Positions 1,302 through 5,199 of a DNA stretch of 64,000 nucleotides are shown here, one piece after another (the first letter of the stretch is position 1; the number at the start of each line of letters is the position of its first letter). The position numbers and the translations under genes are program-made. Origin of the DNA: Candidatus Hydrogenedentota bacterium (GTDB taxonomy: Bacteria > Hydrogenedentota > Hydrogenedentia > Hydrogenedentales > JAGMZX01). The DNA lies in assembly GCA_029556545.1 (NCBI GenBank), contig JAKQEQ010000069.1:29558-93557 (forward strand), in the 5' to 3' direction. The notes under the pieces were generated by a model. That model saw only the letters and a list, made by a program, of their open reading frames with translations. It searched no databases and was not told the origin of the DNA.

Positions 1302-2315
1302 TTAGTCTTGCTTGATCTTGAGTTCCTTTGTACTTAGACCAACTTCCCAGTAATCAATCGGGAAGCCCGCTTTCCGACTTAGAAACTGAAGAAAACCCCT
1401 TGAGTCGTCAGTCTCTGGAGCAGGGGAGCAAATAACGCATCGGGGAAGGCTCGTGCTCTCCGCAAAGTCTCTGTATACATATTCGAGTAGCTGTCCGACG
1501 CCTTCCCTGATCGCTTGCACTGCATTTGCGCAAGTCTTTACCTCGATGTATGCGTGGAATTCAGGATGCGTCACCATCACATCGACACAAGACCTCTCGA
1601 GAAAGACATGTTGACCAAATTCTCCTTCCAGCAGTTGGAAGAGGTGATTCTGGAGACGACGATGAGTAGGGTCATAGCATATCGAGGCCGTCCCTGCACG
1701 ATGGACACGCTCCACGGGAAGCGGTTTCTGTCGTCCCGATGGCAATCTTCGAAAGGCCTCTATATCCGCTGATTCCACCTTGTACAGCATGTATCTCGTT
1801 CGTTTCCAAACCCTGTCCTCTTCGTCCGCCAGACGGCCGGAGACATGGCATTCAGCATCCTCCGGTCGAAAGCGGATGTTGAAGATGCCCGTATTGTAGT
1901 CGGAATGTCCAGTCGTGATGCGGCTCGGATTTCCACCGATTGCACACACATCGTGGCGCATTTGCTGCAACCAACCCCTCCGCTCATATTCCTCTACCAC
2001 CCTCTGGCGATCTTCCTCCGTAAGTAACTCGCACTCACGAATCTCCCCGACGTAGTACCGCTGCCGGTCAGGGGAAATCGCATAAAGTAGAAGGTCTATG
2101 ACTTGCCCTGACTCAATCTGTCGGGTCCGGTTGAGGGCTTCCACAAAACCGTAATGATAACCGTCCAGTTGACGCGAGTAATCGAATAGCCACTCCTCAT
2201 GTCCGAAGCCCGTCTTACCCACATAGGCATCATTGCCTTCTAATTGACGCGCCTCGCCCGTTGGTCGCCGCCAACCTTGTGAATTCCAGCAAAGCCGTGC
2301 GAGATAGGACGCCAT
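1302..2315 (-). CDS. Putative PD-(D/E)XK nuclease with an unassigned N-terminal domain
   Basis: This 337-residue protein has an ideal AGGAGGT ribosome site 9 nt before its ATG. The C-terminal third shows a PD-(D/E)XK-like core: CVDVMVTHPEFHAYIEVKT (Asp, then Glu-x-Lys), followed by a helix REGVGQLLEYVY as in many restriction-type nucleases. The N-terminal part (WNSQGWRRPTGEA, then GFGHEEWLFDYS, then YYVGEIRECELL) recalls from memory PUA-like modules attached to restriction enzymes; this is a weak assignment. The DNA is visibly less GC-rich than its neighbours, suggesting transfer. It lies 183 bp downstream of the variable-repeat kinase on the same strand, so it could be that kinase's effector. 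No signal peptide or membrane segment is seen. Confidence 0.6.
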   Translation of the reverse strand: MASYLARLCWNSQGWRRPTGEARQLEGNDAYVGKTGFGHEEWLFDYSRQLDGYHYGFVEALNRTRQIESGQVIDLLLYAISPDRQRYYVGEIRECELLTEEDRQRVVEEYERRGWLQQMRHDVCAIGGNPSRITTGHSDYNTGIFNIRFRPEDAECHVSGRLADEEDRVWKRTRYMLYKVESADIEAFRRLPSGRQKPLPVERVHRAGTASICYDPTHRRLQNHLFQLLEGEFGQHVFLERSCVDVMVTHPEFHAYIEVKTCANAVQAIREGVGQLLEYVYRDFAESTSLPRCVICSPAPETDDSRGFLQFLSRKAGFPIDYWEVGLSTKELKIKQD

Positions 2316-2498
2316 GGCCTGGATACCTCCTGTTTATACTCACTGAGTACTCGGGCCTCACCTCGTAACACCGCGGTGCCATGCCGATGCCCCACGTCAC
2401 GAATACCCTGCACCACAGCCTTGCGTTTGCTTACGCGGCGAGAAGCATCGATGCGCCGCATCAAAGGATCAAAGAACCAAAGAATCAAATGACCTACA

Positions 2499-4724
2499 TC
2501 ATCTTCGCGAACGCGAACGCACCGCGAACACCCGGCCGTTGCCCGAGTAGTCCCGGTCGGCCCAGTCCTCGCCGCCGTTGCGGAAGCCGAAGCGCCACGC
2601 CGACGACGAATCGCGCGATTCCGCCCATACCCACCAGCCCGTGGTATTAAACACGGGGTCCATGTTCCGCCTGCCCACACCCGGCTGATACAGTCCGCGC
2701 AACTCCTCCCGGTTAGGCATGCGCCAGCCGCCGCCCGCCATCTTGCATGAGGCGACCCACTGTTCAGCCTCCTCGTAAGTGGTATCCCGGTCCGGCCCGA
2801 CCAGCCATTCGAGGCCGGTCTGGGCATCGAAAATCACGCCCTCCGCGGAAACGGTGAAGCGTGTTTTCTTATCCGCTGCCAGCGGCTTTTCCTCCAATGC
2901 CAACTGCTCTCCGTTGCCCGGCGCTACGGTCTGCGCCTGCTCCGAACGCGAACGCACCGCGAATACCCGGTGGTAGCGCAAGCCGTTCCGGTAGTCCCAG
3001 TCTTCGTTGCCGTTGTTGAAGAGGAAGTACCACGCCGACGACGGATCGCGCGATTCCGCCCATACCCACCATCCCTCGGTCGTGAATGCAGGGTCCATGT
3101 TCCGCCTGCCCACACCCGGCTGATACAGTCCGCGCAACTCCTTCCGGTTAGGCATGCGCCAGCCGCCGCCCGCCACCTTGCATGAGGCAACCCACTGTTC
3201 AGCCTGGTTGTAATCGGTATCCTGGTCCGGCCCGACCAGCCATTCAAGGTCGGTCTGGGAATCAGCTATAACGCCCTCCGCGGAAACGGTGAAGCGTGTC
3301 TTCTTATCCGCTGCCAGCGGCCTTTCCTCCAATGCCAACTGCTCTCCGTTGCCCGGCACTACGGTCTGCGCCTGCTTCGGACGCGAACGCACCGCGAACA
3401 CCCGGTTGTCGCTCGAGTCGTCCCGGTTGATCCAGTACTCGTCACCGTTGTGGAAGCGGAAGTCACTCGCCGACGACGAATCGCACGGTTCCGCCCATAC
3501 CCACCAGCCCCCGGTCTTGAACACAGGGTCCATGTTCCGCATGCCCGCACCCGGCTGATATAACCCACGCAATTCCTGCAGGTTAGGCATGCGCCAGCCG
3601 CCGCCCCCCACCTTGCATGAGGCAACCCACTGTTCAGCCTGGTCGTAATCGGTGTCCTGGTCCGGCCCGACCAGCCATTCAAGGCCGGTCTCGGAATCGA
3701 AAATCACGCCCTCTGCGGAAACGGTGAAGCGTGTCCTGCCGGGCGCGACGGCCATCGGCGGGGCTTCCACGCCGGGCGGGGGCGGGCCGGGTTTCGTGGC
3801 ACCTGGAACCGGCGCGGGCTTCTCGAAGCCGAGCATGAGAGGGTTCGGCTGGGGCTTGAGGCTTTCGCGGAGGGCGGCGGCCATGGCGCGGCCATCGAGA
3901 TAGCGATCGACGGGCCGCTTGCTCAGGGCCTTGAGGATGACGCGGCTGAGCGCCTCCGGGACGTTGACGTTGAGTTCGTGAGGCGGCGCGGGGTTCGCAT
4001 TGATGACATGATACATGACCGTGGTCAGGACCTCGCCCGTGAAAGGCTTCTCCCGCGTGAGCAGTTCGTACAGCATGACGGCGACGGAGAAGAGGTCGGA
4101 TCGCCCATCGACCTCCTGTCCCATGCACTGTTCGGGACTCATGTAAAACGGCGTGCCGATGAGGGCGCCCTCCTGCGTCAGCGTCGAGTCGGACATGTGG
4201 GCGATCCCGAAATCCGCCACCTTAATCGGTCCGCCCGGCGGCGTCATGATATTGGCCGGCTTGATGTCGCGATGAATGACACCCCGGTCATGCGCGCTGG
4301 CTAGGGCCTCGCAGATGGCCGCGCCCATCTCGGCGACGGTCTCGGGGTCTACGTGGCGCTTTTCCTCGATGACTTTGCGCAGATCGCCCCCTTCGAGAAA
4401 CTCCATGACAATGTAACCGATGCCATTCGCTTCGTCAGCGTCGTGGATGATGATAATGTTGGGATGGTTCAGCGCGCCTGCGGCGCGGGCCTCGCGCAGA
4501 AACCGCTTCATCATTTCATCAGCGTTCGGGGATGACTCGATCTTGTCACGGCGGACGGTCTTGATCGCGACGCGGCGCTCGATGTTCGGGTCGAGTCCCT
4601 CATAGACGACGCCCATCTCGCCTCTGCCAAGTTCGCGCACGATCCGGTAGCGCCCCAGGTGGTCCGGCATGTTCGTGGCGGTCACGCGCGTGGTTTTCTC
4701 CCCTTGATTACGATCACGGATCAT
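2499..4724 (-). CDS. Ser/Thr protein kinase with three DUF1566 repeats carrying DGR-like variable blocks
   Basis: A 741-residue protein from ATG 4724; TTG 4742 and GTG 4685 (12 nt after a GGGGAG) are alternative starts. The kinase domain (about residues 24-295) is complete: glycine loop GRGEMGVV, Lys55, HRDIKPAN at 151-158, DFG at 171-173 and GTPFYMSPEQ. A proline-rich linker follows, then three 145-residue DUF1566/Lcl-type repeats, each with GGGWRMPN, ELRGLYQP and GWWVWAE and ending in RVFAVRSR. No membrane segment is present, so kinase and repeats are probably cytosolic. In each repeat a 20-codon block (residues 421-440, 566-585, 711-730) varies almost only at NNC codons, as expected for adenine-directed DGR mutagenesis. 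DUF1566 is a C-type-lectin-like fold known among DGR targets. Likely role: ligand sensing coupled to phosphorylation. Confidence 0.85.
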   Translation of the reverse strand: MIRDRNQGEKTTRVTATNMPDHLGRYRIVRELGRGEMGVVYEGLDPNIERRVAIKTVRRDKIESSPNADEMMKRFLREARAAGALNHPNIIIIHDADEANGIGYIVMEFLEGGDLRKVIEEKRHVDPETVAEMGAAICEALASAHDRGVIHRDIKPANIMTPPGGPIKVADFGIAHMSDSTLTQEGALIGTPFYMSPEQCMGQEVDGRSDLFSVAVMLYELLTREKPFTGEVLTTVMYHVINANPAPPHELNVNVPEALSRVILKALSKRPVDRYLDGRAMAAALRESLKPQPNPLMLGFEKPAPVPGATKPGPPPPGVEAPPMAVAPGRTRFTVSAEGVIFDSETGLEWLVGPDQDTDYDQAEQWVASCKVGGGGWRMPNLQELRGLYQPGAGMRNMDPVFKTGGWWVWAEPCDSSSASDFRFHNGDEYWINRDDSSDNRVFAVRSRPKQAQTVVPGNGEQLALEERPLAADKKTRFTVSAEGVIADSQTDLEWLVGPDQDTDYNQAEQWVASCKVAGGGWRMPNRKELRGLYQPGVGRRNMDPAFTTEGWWVWAESRDPSSAWYFLFNNGNEDWDYRNGLRYHRVFAVRSRSEQAQTVAPGNGEQLALEEKPLAADKKTRFTVSAEGVIFDAQTGLEWLVGPDRDTTYEEAEQWVASCKMAGGGWRMPNREELRGLYQPGVGRRNMDPVFNTTGWWVWAESRDSSSAWRFGFRNGGEDWADRDYSGNGRVFAVRSRSRR
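2535..2594 (-). repeat. DGR-like variable block 3 (last DUF1566 repeat)
   Basis: This 20-codon block lies in the 3'-most repeat, 36 nt before the stop codon. Compared with the copies exactly 435 and 870 nt away, 13 codons differ. In each of them the third base is identical in all three copies (C in twelve, G in one), while bases one and two vary. The block is followed in coding direction by a shared segment encoding RVFAVRSR, which is where a DGR initiation-of-mutagenic-homing site would lie. Confidence 0.75.
2970..3029 (-). repeat. DGR-like variable block 2 (middle DUF1566 repeat)
   Basis: Aligned codon by codon with 2535-2594 and 3405-3464. It carries AAC at three of the variable positions (variable codons 3, 4 and 8 counted in coding direction), the codon expected in an unmutated DGR template. 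The other variable codons are NNC types such as TAC, CTC, GAC, GGC, CGC and CAC, plus one TTG. Confidence 0.7.
3405..3464 (-). repeat. DGR-like variable block 1 (first DUF1566 repeat)
   Basis: First of the three in coding order. Two variable codons are AAC (7 and 13). The others are GAC, CGC, CAC, TAC, ATC and AGC, plus one TCG. Non-variable codons between them (TTC, AAC, GGY, GAR, TGG, CGG) are kept in all three copies and show only synonymous third-base changes, the opposite of the variable codons. Confidence 0.7.
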
Positions 4725-5199
4725 GTTAGCACACCTGCGCAAGTAAGGAACTATGTCAGAATGTCATACGCCCGCAGCATCAAGTGATCCCCACCTCTTG
4801 GACACGCTCTTGGGGACGTTACTTGGTGATATCCACCCGTTACACCCATCCATTCGCCTTTTGTGACAGAAACGGACGCTCAGAACCCGGAGGTGTCGAC
4901 CACTCCCTTCCGTTCTCTGTTCATCCAACCCAAACTATCATGCTTGGCTTCTCCTGTCAACGGCCCGCGCCGGGTATGTCCCCGCCTCTGGGCTTCAGCA
5001 ACTATCCGGAACCCGTTTCCCGCAACGACTCGACCGACTCCGAAACGCGCTCTTGCCGTACGGGCGTCGACGCTTTGCGGACCTCAGATTTGCGTTCGAC
5101 CGTCATCATTCTGAACGCTCCTACGGTGCTTAGCGTGCCACCTCACGGCATCGGAGAGCATCGAGGCGACGCTGTGAATCTCCGTCGTCATTCGGCAAG
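4725..5199. other. Non-coding spacer upstream of the kinase
   Basis: 475 bp between the kinase start and the end of the PIN antitoxin gene. A 145-codon open frame on the plus strand has no recognisable protein character. One imperfect inverted repeat is visible: ATCAAGTGATCCCCA near 4779-4793 pairs with TGGGGACGTTACTTGGTGAT near 4811-4830. No DGR template repeat, reverse transcriptase fragment or tRNA is visible here. Confidence 0.5.

Follow-up and report, generated by a model that had tools for sequence, protein, structure and literature searches.

The locus studied here raises the question of whether three repeated blocks in a bacterial Ser/Thr kinase gene were written by a diversity-generating retroelement (DGR) and, if they were, from where such an element would have acted and whether it acts still.

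A Ser/Thr kinase with three tandem Lcl_C domains

The gene lies on the reverse strand of the window, by which we mean the whole 64,000-nucleotide stretch that was analysed, and is made up as follows.

2499..4742, reverse strand: whole ORF, 747 aa; Ser/Thr kinase, linker and three Lcl_C domains
3900..4649, reverse strand: protein kinase domain (Pkinase, residues 32-281; Pfam E=3e-48)
3381..3731, reverse strand: Lcl_C (DUF1566) domain, copy 1 (Pfam)
3297..3380, reverse strand: linker between copies 1 and 2, 28 residues, within the 435-nt tandem unit
2946..3296, reverse strand: Lcl_C domain, copy 2 (Pfam)
2862..2945, reverse strand: linker between copies 2 and 3, 28 residues, nearly the sequence of the linker between copies 1 and 2
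2511..2861, reverse strand: Lcl_C domain, copy 3 (Pfam and predicted C-type lectin fold)

The mechanical start of the ORF is a TTG; the ATG at about 4670, which opens the sequence MPDHLGRY common to the paralogue described below, is the likelier start. The catalytic motifs are intact (GRGEMGVV glycine loop, VAIK lysine, HRD and DFG), and judged by them the protein is a Hanks-type Ser/Thr kinase. No membrane segment was found in it (the top 19-residue hydropathy mean was 0.81), and a Pfam search found no vWA domain, the domain that, along with MoxR ATPase and peptidase neighbours, marks the tandem lectin targets of ternary (VMAP) conflict systems. The initial annotation had described an intact kinase lacking a membrane segment, and the motifs, the Pkinase match and the hydropathy bear this out. 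PADLOC matches to PD-T4-6 and mad6 fell on the kinase domain only, as expected of any Ser/Thr kinase, and were not read as defence. Behind the kinase gene, after a gap of 184 nt, comes a similarly oriented gene at 1302-2315 (reverse strand, 337 aa); it matched nothing in Pfam or PADLOC, and its product is a possible partner of the kinase.

The C-terminal part of the protein scored 115.8 bits for Lcl_C (PF07603), against a Pfam cut-off of 34.9, in three stretches, each 435-nt tandem unit being composed of a 117-codon Lcl_C domain and a 28-codon linker. A sequence search of solved structures with the domain returned nothing significant, and it was the fold comparison that settled the assignment to the C-type lectins. 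A structure model of copy 3, built from 66 aligned domains (mean pLDDT 95), was nearest to the C-terminal domain of Bdellovibrio Bd2740 (Z 12.7, rmsd 2.5, 100 aligned), followed by that of Legionella Lcl (Z 12.2, rmsd 2.6, 107 aligned; Foldseek E=2e-5) and then by many C-type lectins; the closest solved entries were 8oks and 8q4e (Legionella Lcl C-terminal domain). Copy 3 is thus predicted to adopt a C-type lectin fold, and the DUF1566, C-type-lectin-like identity first proposed for these domains agrees with both Pfam and the fold comparison.

Variation in the blocks follows the first two codon positions

Each Lcl_C domain contains one variable block, in the C-terminal third of the domain.

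3405..3464, reverse strand: variable block of copy 1, domain codons 90-109
2970..3029, reverse strand: variable block of copy 2, domain codons 90-109
2535..2594, reverse strand: variable block of copy 3, domain codons 90-109, with no substitutions of its own at non-adenine sites

By analogy with known C-type-lectin targets of DGRs, the varied residues would form the ligand face. Thirteen codons differ non-synonymously among the three 60-nt blocks, and in 13/13 the third base is constant, being C in 12 codons and G in one (TCG/TTG/TCG). At six positions (domain codons 94, 97, 102, 104, 108 and 109) one copy retains AAC, and the remaining differences are synonymous third bases (GGT/GGC, GAG/GAA). 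This pattern had been reported from the letters alone, and our codon-by-codon check reproduced it in every number, including the 435-nt spacing, the six retained AAC codons and the synonymous character of the intervening changes. An invariant third C was seen in 12/13 of the non-synonymously variable codons within the blocks and in 3/21 of those elsewhere in the domains (Fisher p=9e-6), so the block pattern is not due to chance.

Intact DGR cassettes in Desulfobacterota carry the matching template

A profile built from the Lcl_C domains recovered 76 loci in bacterial genomes, and in two of them, L080 (Desulfobulbaceae, DOZO01000045) and L109 (Desulfoarculaceae, JAHYIV010000001), both Desulfobacterota, a complete DGR lies directly behind the target in the order target, avd, template, reverse transcriptase (RT). 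The RT, at L080:11050-12585 and L109:11080-12624, consists of RVT_1 and a C-terminal MutS_I; the match to MutS domain I was tested in L080. The accessory protein corresponds to bAvd (PF22296) and to phrog_3206, 'Avd protein of DGR'. The template of L080 has the sequence DSSSAWNFNFNNGNENWNNRNNSNNNRVFGVRSRPR. In L080 and L109 alike, the template lying beside the RT and Avd has WNFNFNNGNENWNNR(N/D)NSNNN at the positions of the array's varying codons, written with AAC or AAT, and its 3' end encodes RVFGVRSR. A template predicted beforehand from the array blocks was the same as that of L080 in the residues of all varied codons.

We then scored the repeats against the L080 template, with the caveat that the statistics treat sites as independent and that the reference template comes from a relative. 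The three copies differ from one another at 19/29 template A sites and at 6/49 other sites (p=2e-6). Compared with the template itself, copy 3 was changed at 20/29 A sites and 4/49 other sites (p=3e-8), copy 1 at 13/29 and 7/49, and copy 2 at 14/29 and 7/49, while the L080 target differed from its adjoining template at 13/29 A sites and 0/49 others. The template match and the adenine-site bias together argue for a DGR origin, and at the level of sequence, short of homing observed directly, they identify the blocks of the kinase array as DGR variable repeats. The DGR origin proposed in the initial annotation is in this way upheld by an AAC template lying next to a DGR RT in relatives.

The targets in L080 and L109 have an Lcl_C domain 62-66% identical to copy 3 and a similar 3' flank. 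Unlike the triple kinase array, however, they are lipoprotein-like proteins with a single Lcl_C domain, and they sit beside an intact avd, template and RT. One type of template in Desulfobacterota and matching repeats in Hydrogenedentota point to transfer of targets between phyla.

Remnants of the machinery in the source genome and its relatives

The source genome is a draft of 6.1 Mb in 195 contigs, 96% complete. No RT was found in it, either by PF00078 or with the L080 RT as query, which as a positive control matched in three genomes designated G001, G060 and G018 and in the genome of L080. Nor did a DNA search of the draft find a template; only four variable repeats were recovered. The fourth of these, at G000:C57:24477-24581 (loci L004 and L146), belongs to a lipoprotein-like Lcl_C target of the L080 kind and has a three-codon deletion. 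The draft contains no whole avd, residues 2-41 of 114 being left on the same contig, C57; this 40-residue remnant stands 0.8 kb behind the C57 repeat in the same orientation, with unrelated sequence beyond, so that target and avd follow each other as in the intact L080 and L109 cassettes. The tail of an msrB-like gene (identified by eye) is present twice around the C57 repeat. Lcl_C copies on contig C161 gave no template match in the DNA search and were set aside. A search for an RT and an AAC template had been proposed, and its outcome was divided: neither was found in the organism's own draft, and both were found in relatives, where the 3' end encodes RVFGVRSR in place of the anticipated RVFAVRSR.

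A template of the L080 type was likewise found in none of 68 genomes of the phylum, all drafts, even though G018 and G060 carry variable repeats (L075 and L071, respectively, from Hydrogenedentota of the same order as the source genome). The NNC pattern recurs in the C57 repeat, in G018 and in the triple-domain protein of L071. The latter (L071:3116-5524, in G060:C129) is not a kinase: it combines a carboxypeptidase-regulatory domain, three Lcl_C domains and a TonB C-terminal domain, with NNC-type blocks in at least two of the domains. Elsewhere, in Desulfobacterota and Planctomycetota, the Lcl_C domain is joined to caspase-family peptidases (Peptidase_C14; L072, L078, L084, L087, L090 and L093), and the protein of L087 has three Lcl_C domains.

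Pieces of cassettes were also found behind the targets of relatives: the start of an RT in L073, avd and the tail of an RT in both L085 and L086, and RT pieces in L110. Together with C57, these remnants indicate that loss of the machinery with retention of the targets recurs among Lcl_C targets. In L085 the RT core has been lost and the MutS_I part is fused to avd. Phage and plasmid records in two collections contained no match to the Lcl_C domain. A phage-like contig, L144 (IMGVR_UViG_3300025317_000053), with terminase-like and portal-like ORFs recognized by eye, has three separate Lcl_C proteins of the array's repeat type, and no RT was found on its 18 kb. The RT of L058, in the congeneric genome G001 (contig C154), belongs to another DGR with a NNNPRNCRSANRNN-type template; since G001 is also without a related Lcl_C domain, L058 is no model for the source of the array's repeats. 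Repeated target-like genes are present at L058 too.

The array stands where a paralogous kinase has its membrane segment

A paralogue of the kinase is encoded on contig C100 of the source genome, 83% identical over 298 residues in the kinase.

3815..4706, reverse strand: stretch 82% DNA-identical to the transmembrane kinase paralogue on C100

In the linker the similarity fades out ahead of the membrane segment of the paralogue (IVAAATAALLVVALVIALS, with a mean hydropathy of 2.74), and a further C-terminal domain comes after that segment. The array kinase retains the kinase domain and part of the proline-rich linker, and then Lcl_C begins. Given the layout of the C100 paralogue, the array replaced both the membrane segment and the other C-terminal domain, making the kinase cytosolic. 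Kinases of the C100 layout also occur in G001 (75%) and in G018 and G060 (61%), and we infer from its presence in four genomes that the transmembrane form is the older one.

The last copy carries the 3' flank

Two further features lie beyond the third domain.

2465..2504, reverse strand: conserved 3' flank (AGATGATGTAGGTCATTTGATTCTTTG...), after copy 3
2448..2464, reverse strand: weak inverted repeat TTGATGC-GGC-GCATCGA, at the site of the relatives' stem-loop

The AGATGATGTAGGTCATTTGATTCTTTG flank, slightly altered, follows the targets beside intact DGRs and is absent after copies 1 and 2. An IMH has been described at the corresponding position in BPP-1 (PMC12875486), and by analogy the homing signal of copy 3 would lie in its flank. 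A stem-loop of 9-10 bp is found some 50-80 nt further along in intact relatives; behind copy 3 such a structure is absent or weak, and the flank has no advantage in folding over shuffled sequence. In BPP-1 the stem-loop boosts homing, and its loss impairs homing severely, not wholly (PMC12875486).

Outside the blocks, pairwise differences of 28, 29 and 27 of 264 gave roughly equal branch lengths of 15, 13 and 14 for the copies. Within the repeat, the 58 non-adenine sites show 3 ordinary substitutions in copy 1, 3 in copy 2 and 0 in copy 3, where about 3 would be expected from its own flank (Poisson p = 0.046). The lack of ordinary substitutions and the sole 3' flank weakly suggest, on the strength of few substitutions, that rewriting reached copy 3 most recently, in which case copies 1 and 2 would retain older specificities. 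This order is in line with Thiohalocapsa, in which, at some sites of a single target, variation was more frequent in the third repeat than in the first two (PMC10907252).

How the array probably arose

We consider it highly probable that the gene is a remote target of the DGR type that is intact in Desulfobacterota, produced by fusion of a kinase copy with an Lcl_C domain and by tandem triplication, with the RT elsewhere, decayed or dormant, or unassembled. A copy of the resident transmembrane Ser/Thr kinase would have been joined, minus its membrane segment and C-terminal domain, to the Lcl_C domain of a DGR target, after which the unit of linker and Lcl_C would have been duplicated in tandem until there were three. 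A DGR RT acting from elsewhere would have retrohomed its template, with random bases at the adenines, into the repeats; in this strain that DGR may since have decayed or become dormant, or its RT may lie in the unassembled part. As for function, binding of a ligand would set the activity of the cytosolic kinase or pick its substrates, and most likely three lectin-fold domains of differing specificity would steer the one or the other. Weighing against this explanation are the want of an RT, a template and a whole avd in the draft, the 68 genomes of the phylum in which no template was found, and the weak stem-loop behind copy 3.

Could the blocks have arisen with no DGR at all, by positive selection on the binding face of duplicated lectin domains under a preference for C or G in third positions? 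Binding faces are often seen to evolve fast, and 79% of the third positions of the ORF are C or G; nevertheless, this account, already disfavoured, is very improbable, since codons ending in C in every copy are so much commoner among those that vary within the blocks than elsewhere (12/13 against 3/21) and since an actual DGR template has AAC or AAT where these codons vary. A DGR lost long ago, with the array now evolving as an ordinary protein, is nearly an even bet: the avd remnant, the missing RT and template, the weak stem-loop and the recurrence of cassette remnants in L073, L085, L086 and L110 all fit it, and what it leaves unexplained is the third repeat, with 0 ordinary substitutions in 58 sites.

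That same repeat speaks in favour of an active DGR, one whose RT and template would be in the cell but outside the draft (on a phage or a plasmid, or within the 4% not assembled) and would rewrite the three repeats in trans. A 195-contig draft leaves room for it, degenerate loci of Thiohalocapsa are reported to be acted on in trans (PMC10907252), and the phage-like L144 bears three targets of the array's type. We regard it as rather unlikely, however: the draft lacks RT and template, its avd is cut short where it stands, copies 1 and 2 have acquired ordinary substitutions and are not followed by the 3' flank, and neither collection of phage and plasmid records yielded a match to the domain. 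We judge a decayed or dormant state likelier than active rewriting, and the initial description of three surfaces mutable at present is not sustained.

Relation to known systems and significance

The components of this arrangement are already published, separately. DGR targets with a Ser/Thr kinase are known from cyanobacteria, where DGR targets are mostly predicted to be cytosolic (PMC7517822); those kinases share with the array a variable repeat within a C-type lectin domain at the C terminus and a position remote from the machinery, and differ from it in that the array is of the Lcl_C/DUF1566 type, in three tandem copies, in Hydrogenedentota and with no RT found. From Thiohalocapsa, targets with three lectin domains in tandem have been described that sit at degenerate loci and are diversified in trans (PMC10907252). 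Like the array protein, the targets of DGR 4 and 5 of strain PB-PSB1 have three tandem C-type-lectin domains per protein and have lost the RT at the locus, but they bear an N-terminal vWA domain and are part of a ternary conflict system, where the array protein has a kinase instead; moreover, the Thiohalocapsa genome, unlike our draft, has a trans-acting RT and template, and variation among reads was shown. DUF1566 is reportedly the commonest Pfam domain of DGR targets, and 31 DGRs have several repeats per ORF (PMC6642488); the main text of that survey, which has DUF1566 targets and multi-repeat ORFs as here, does not use the word kinase. Our literature search found no publication naming both Hydrogenedentes and diversity-generating retroelement, and no published case of a triple tandem lectin and a DGR-targeted kinase in one protein. 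The view that the triple arrangement is unusual therefore holds for this combination and fails for the parts, given the Thiohalocapsa triples and the cyanobacterial kinases.

What is new is the kinase and the triple array in one protein, the transmembrane counterpart in that genome, and the division of targets and machinery between phyla. The locus illustrates how a DGR can recruit a target: a hypermutable array has taken the place of the membrane and C-terminal part of a resident receptor-like kinase. With the ancestral and derived forms in one genome, the effect of the array on signalling is directly testable. Tandem duplication might even serve as an archive, the flank-bearing last copy alone being rewritten and each duplication freezing an older specificity upstream, so that the kinase gathers past recognitions. 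We think this unlikely, but if the last repeat alone is rewritten, tandem arrays of this kind would be records of past specificities.
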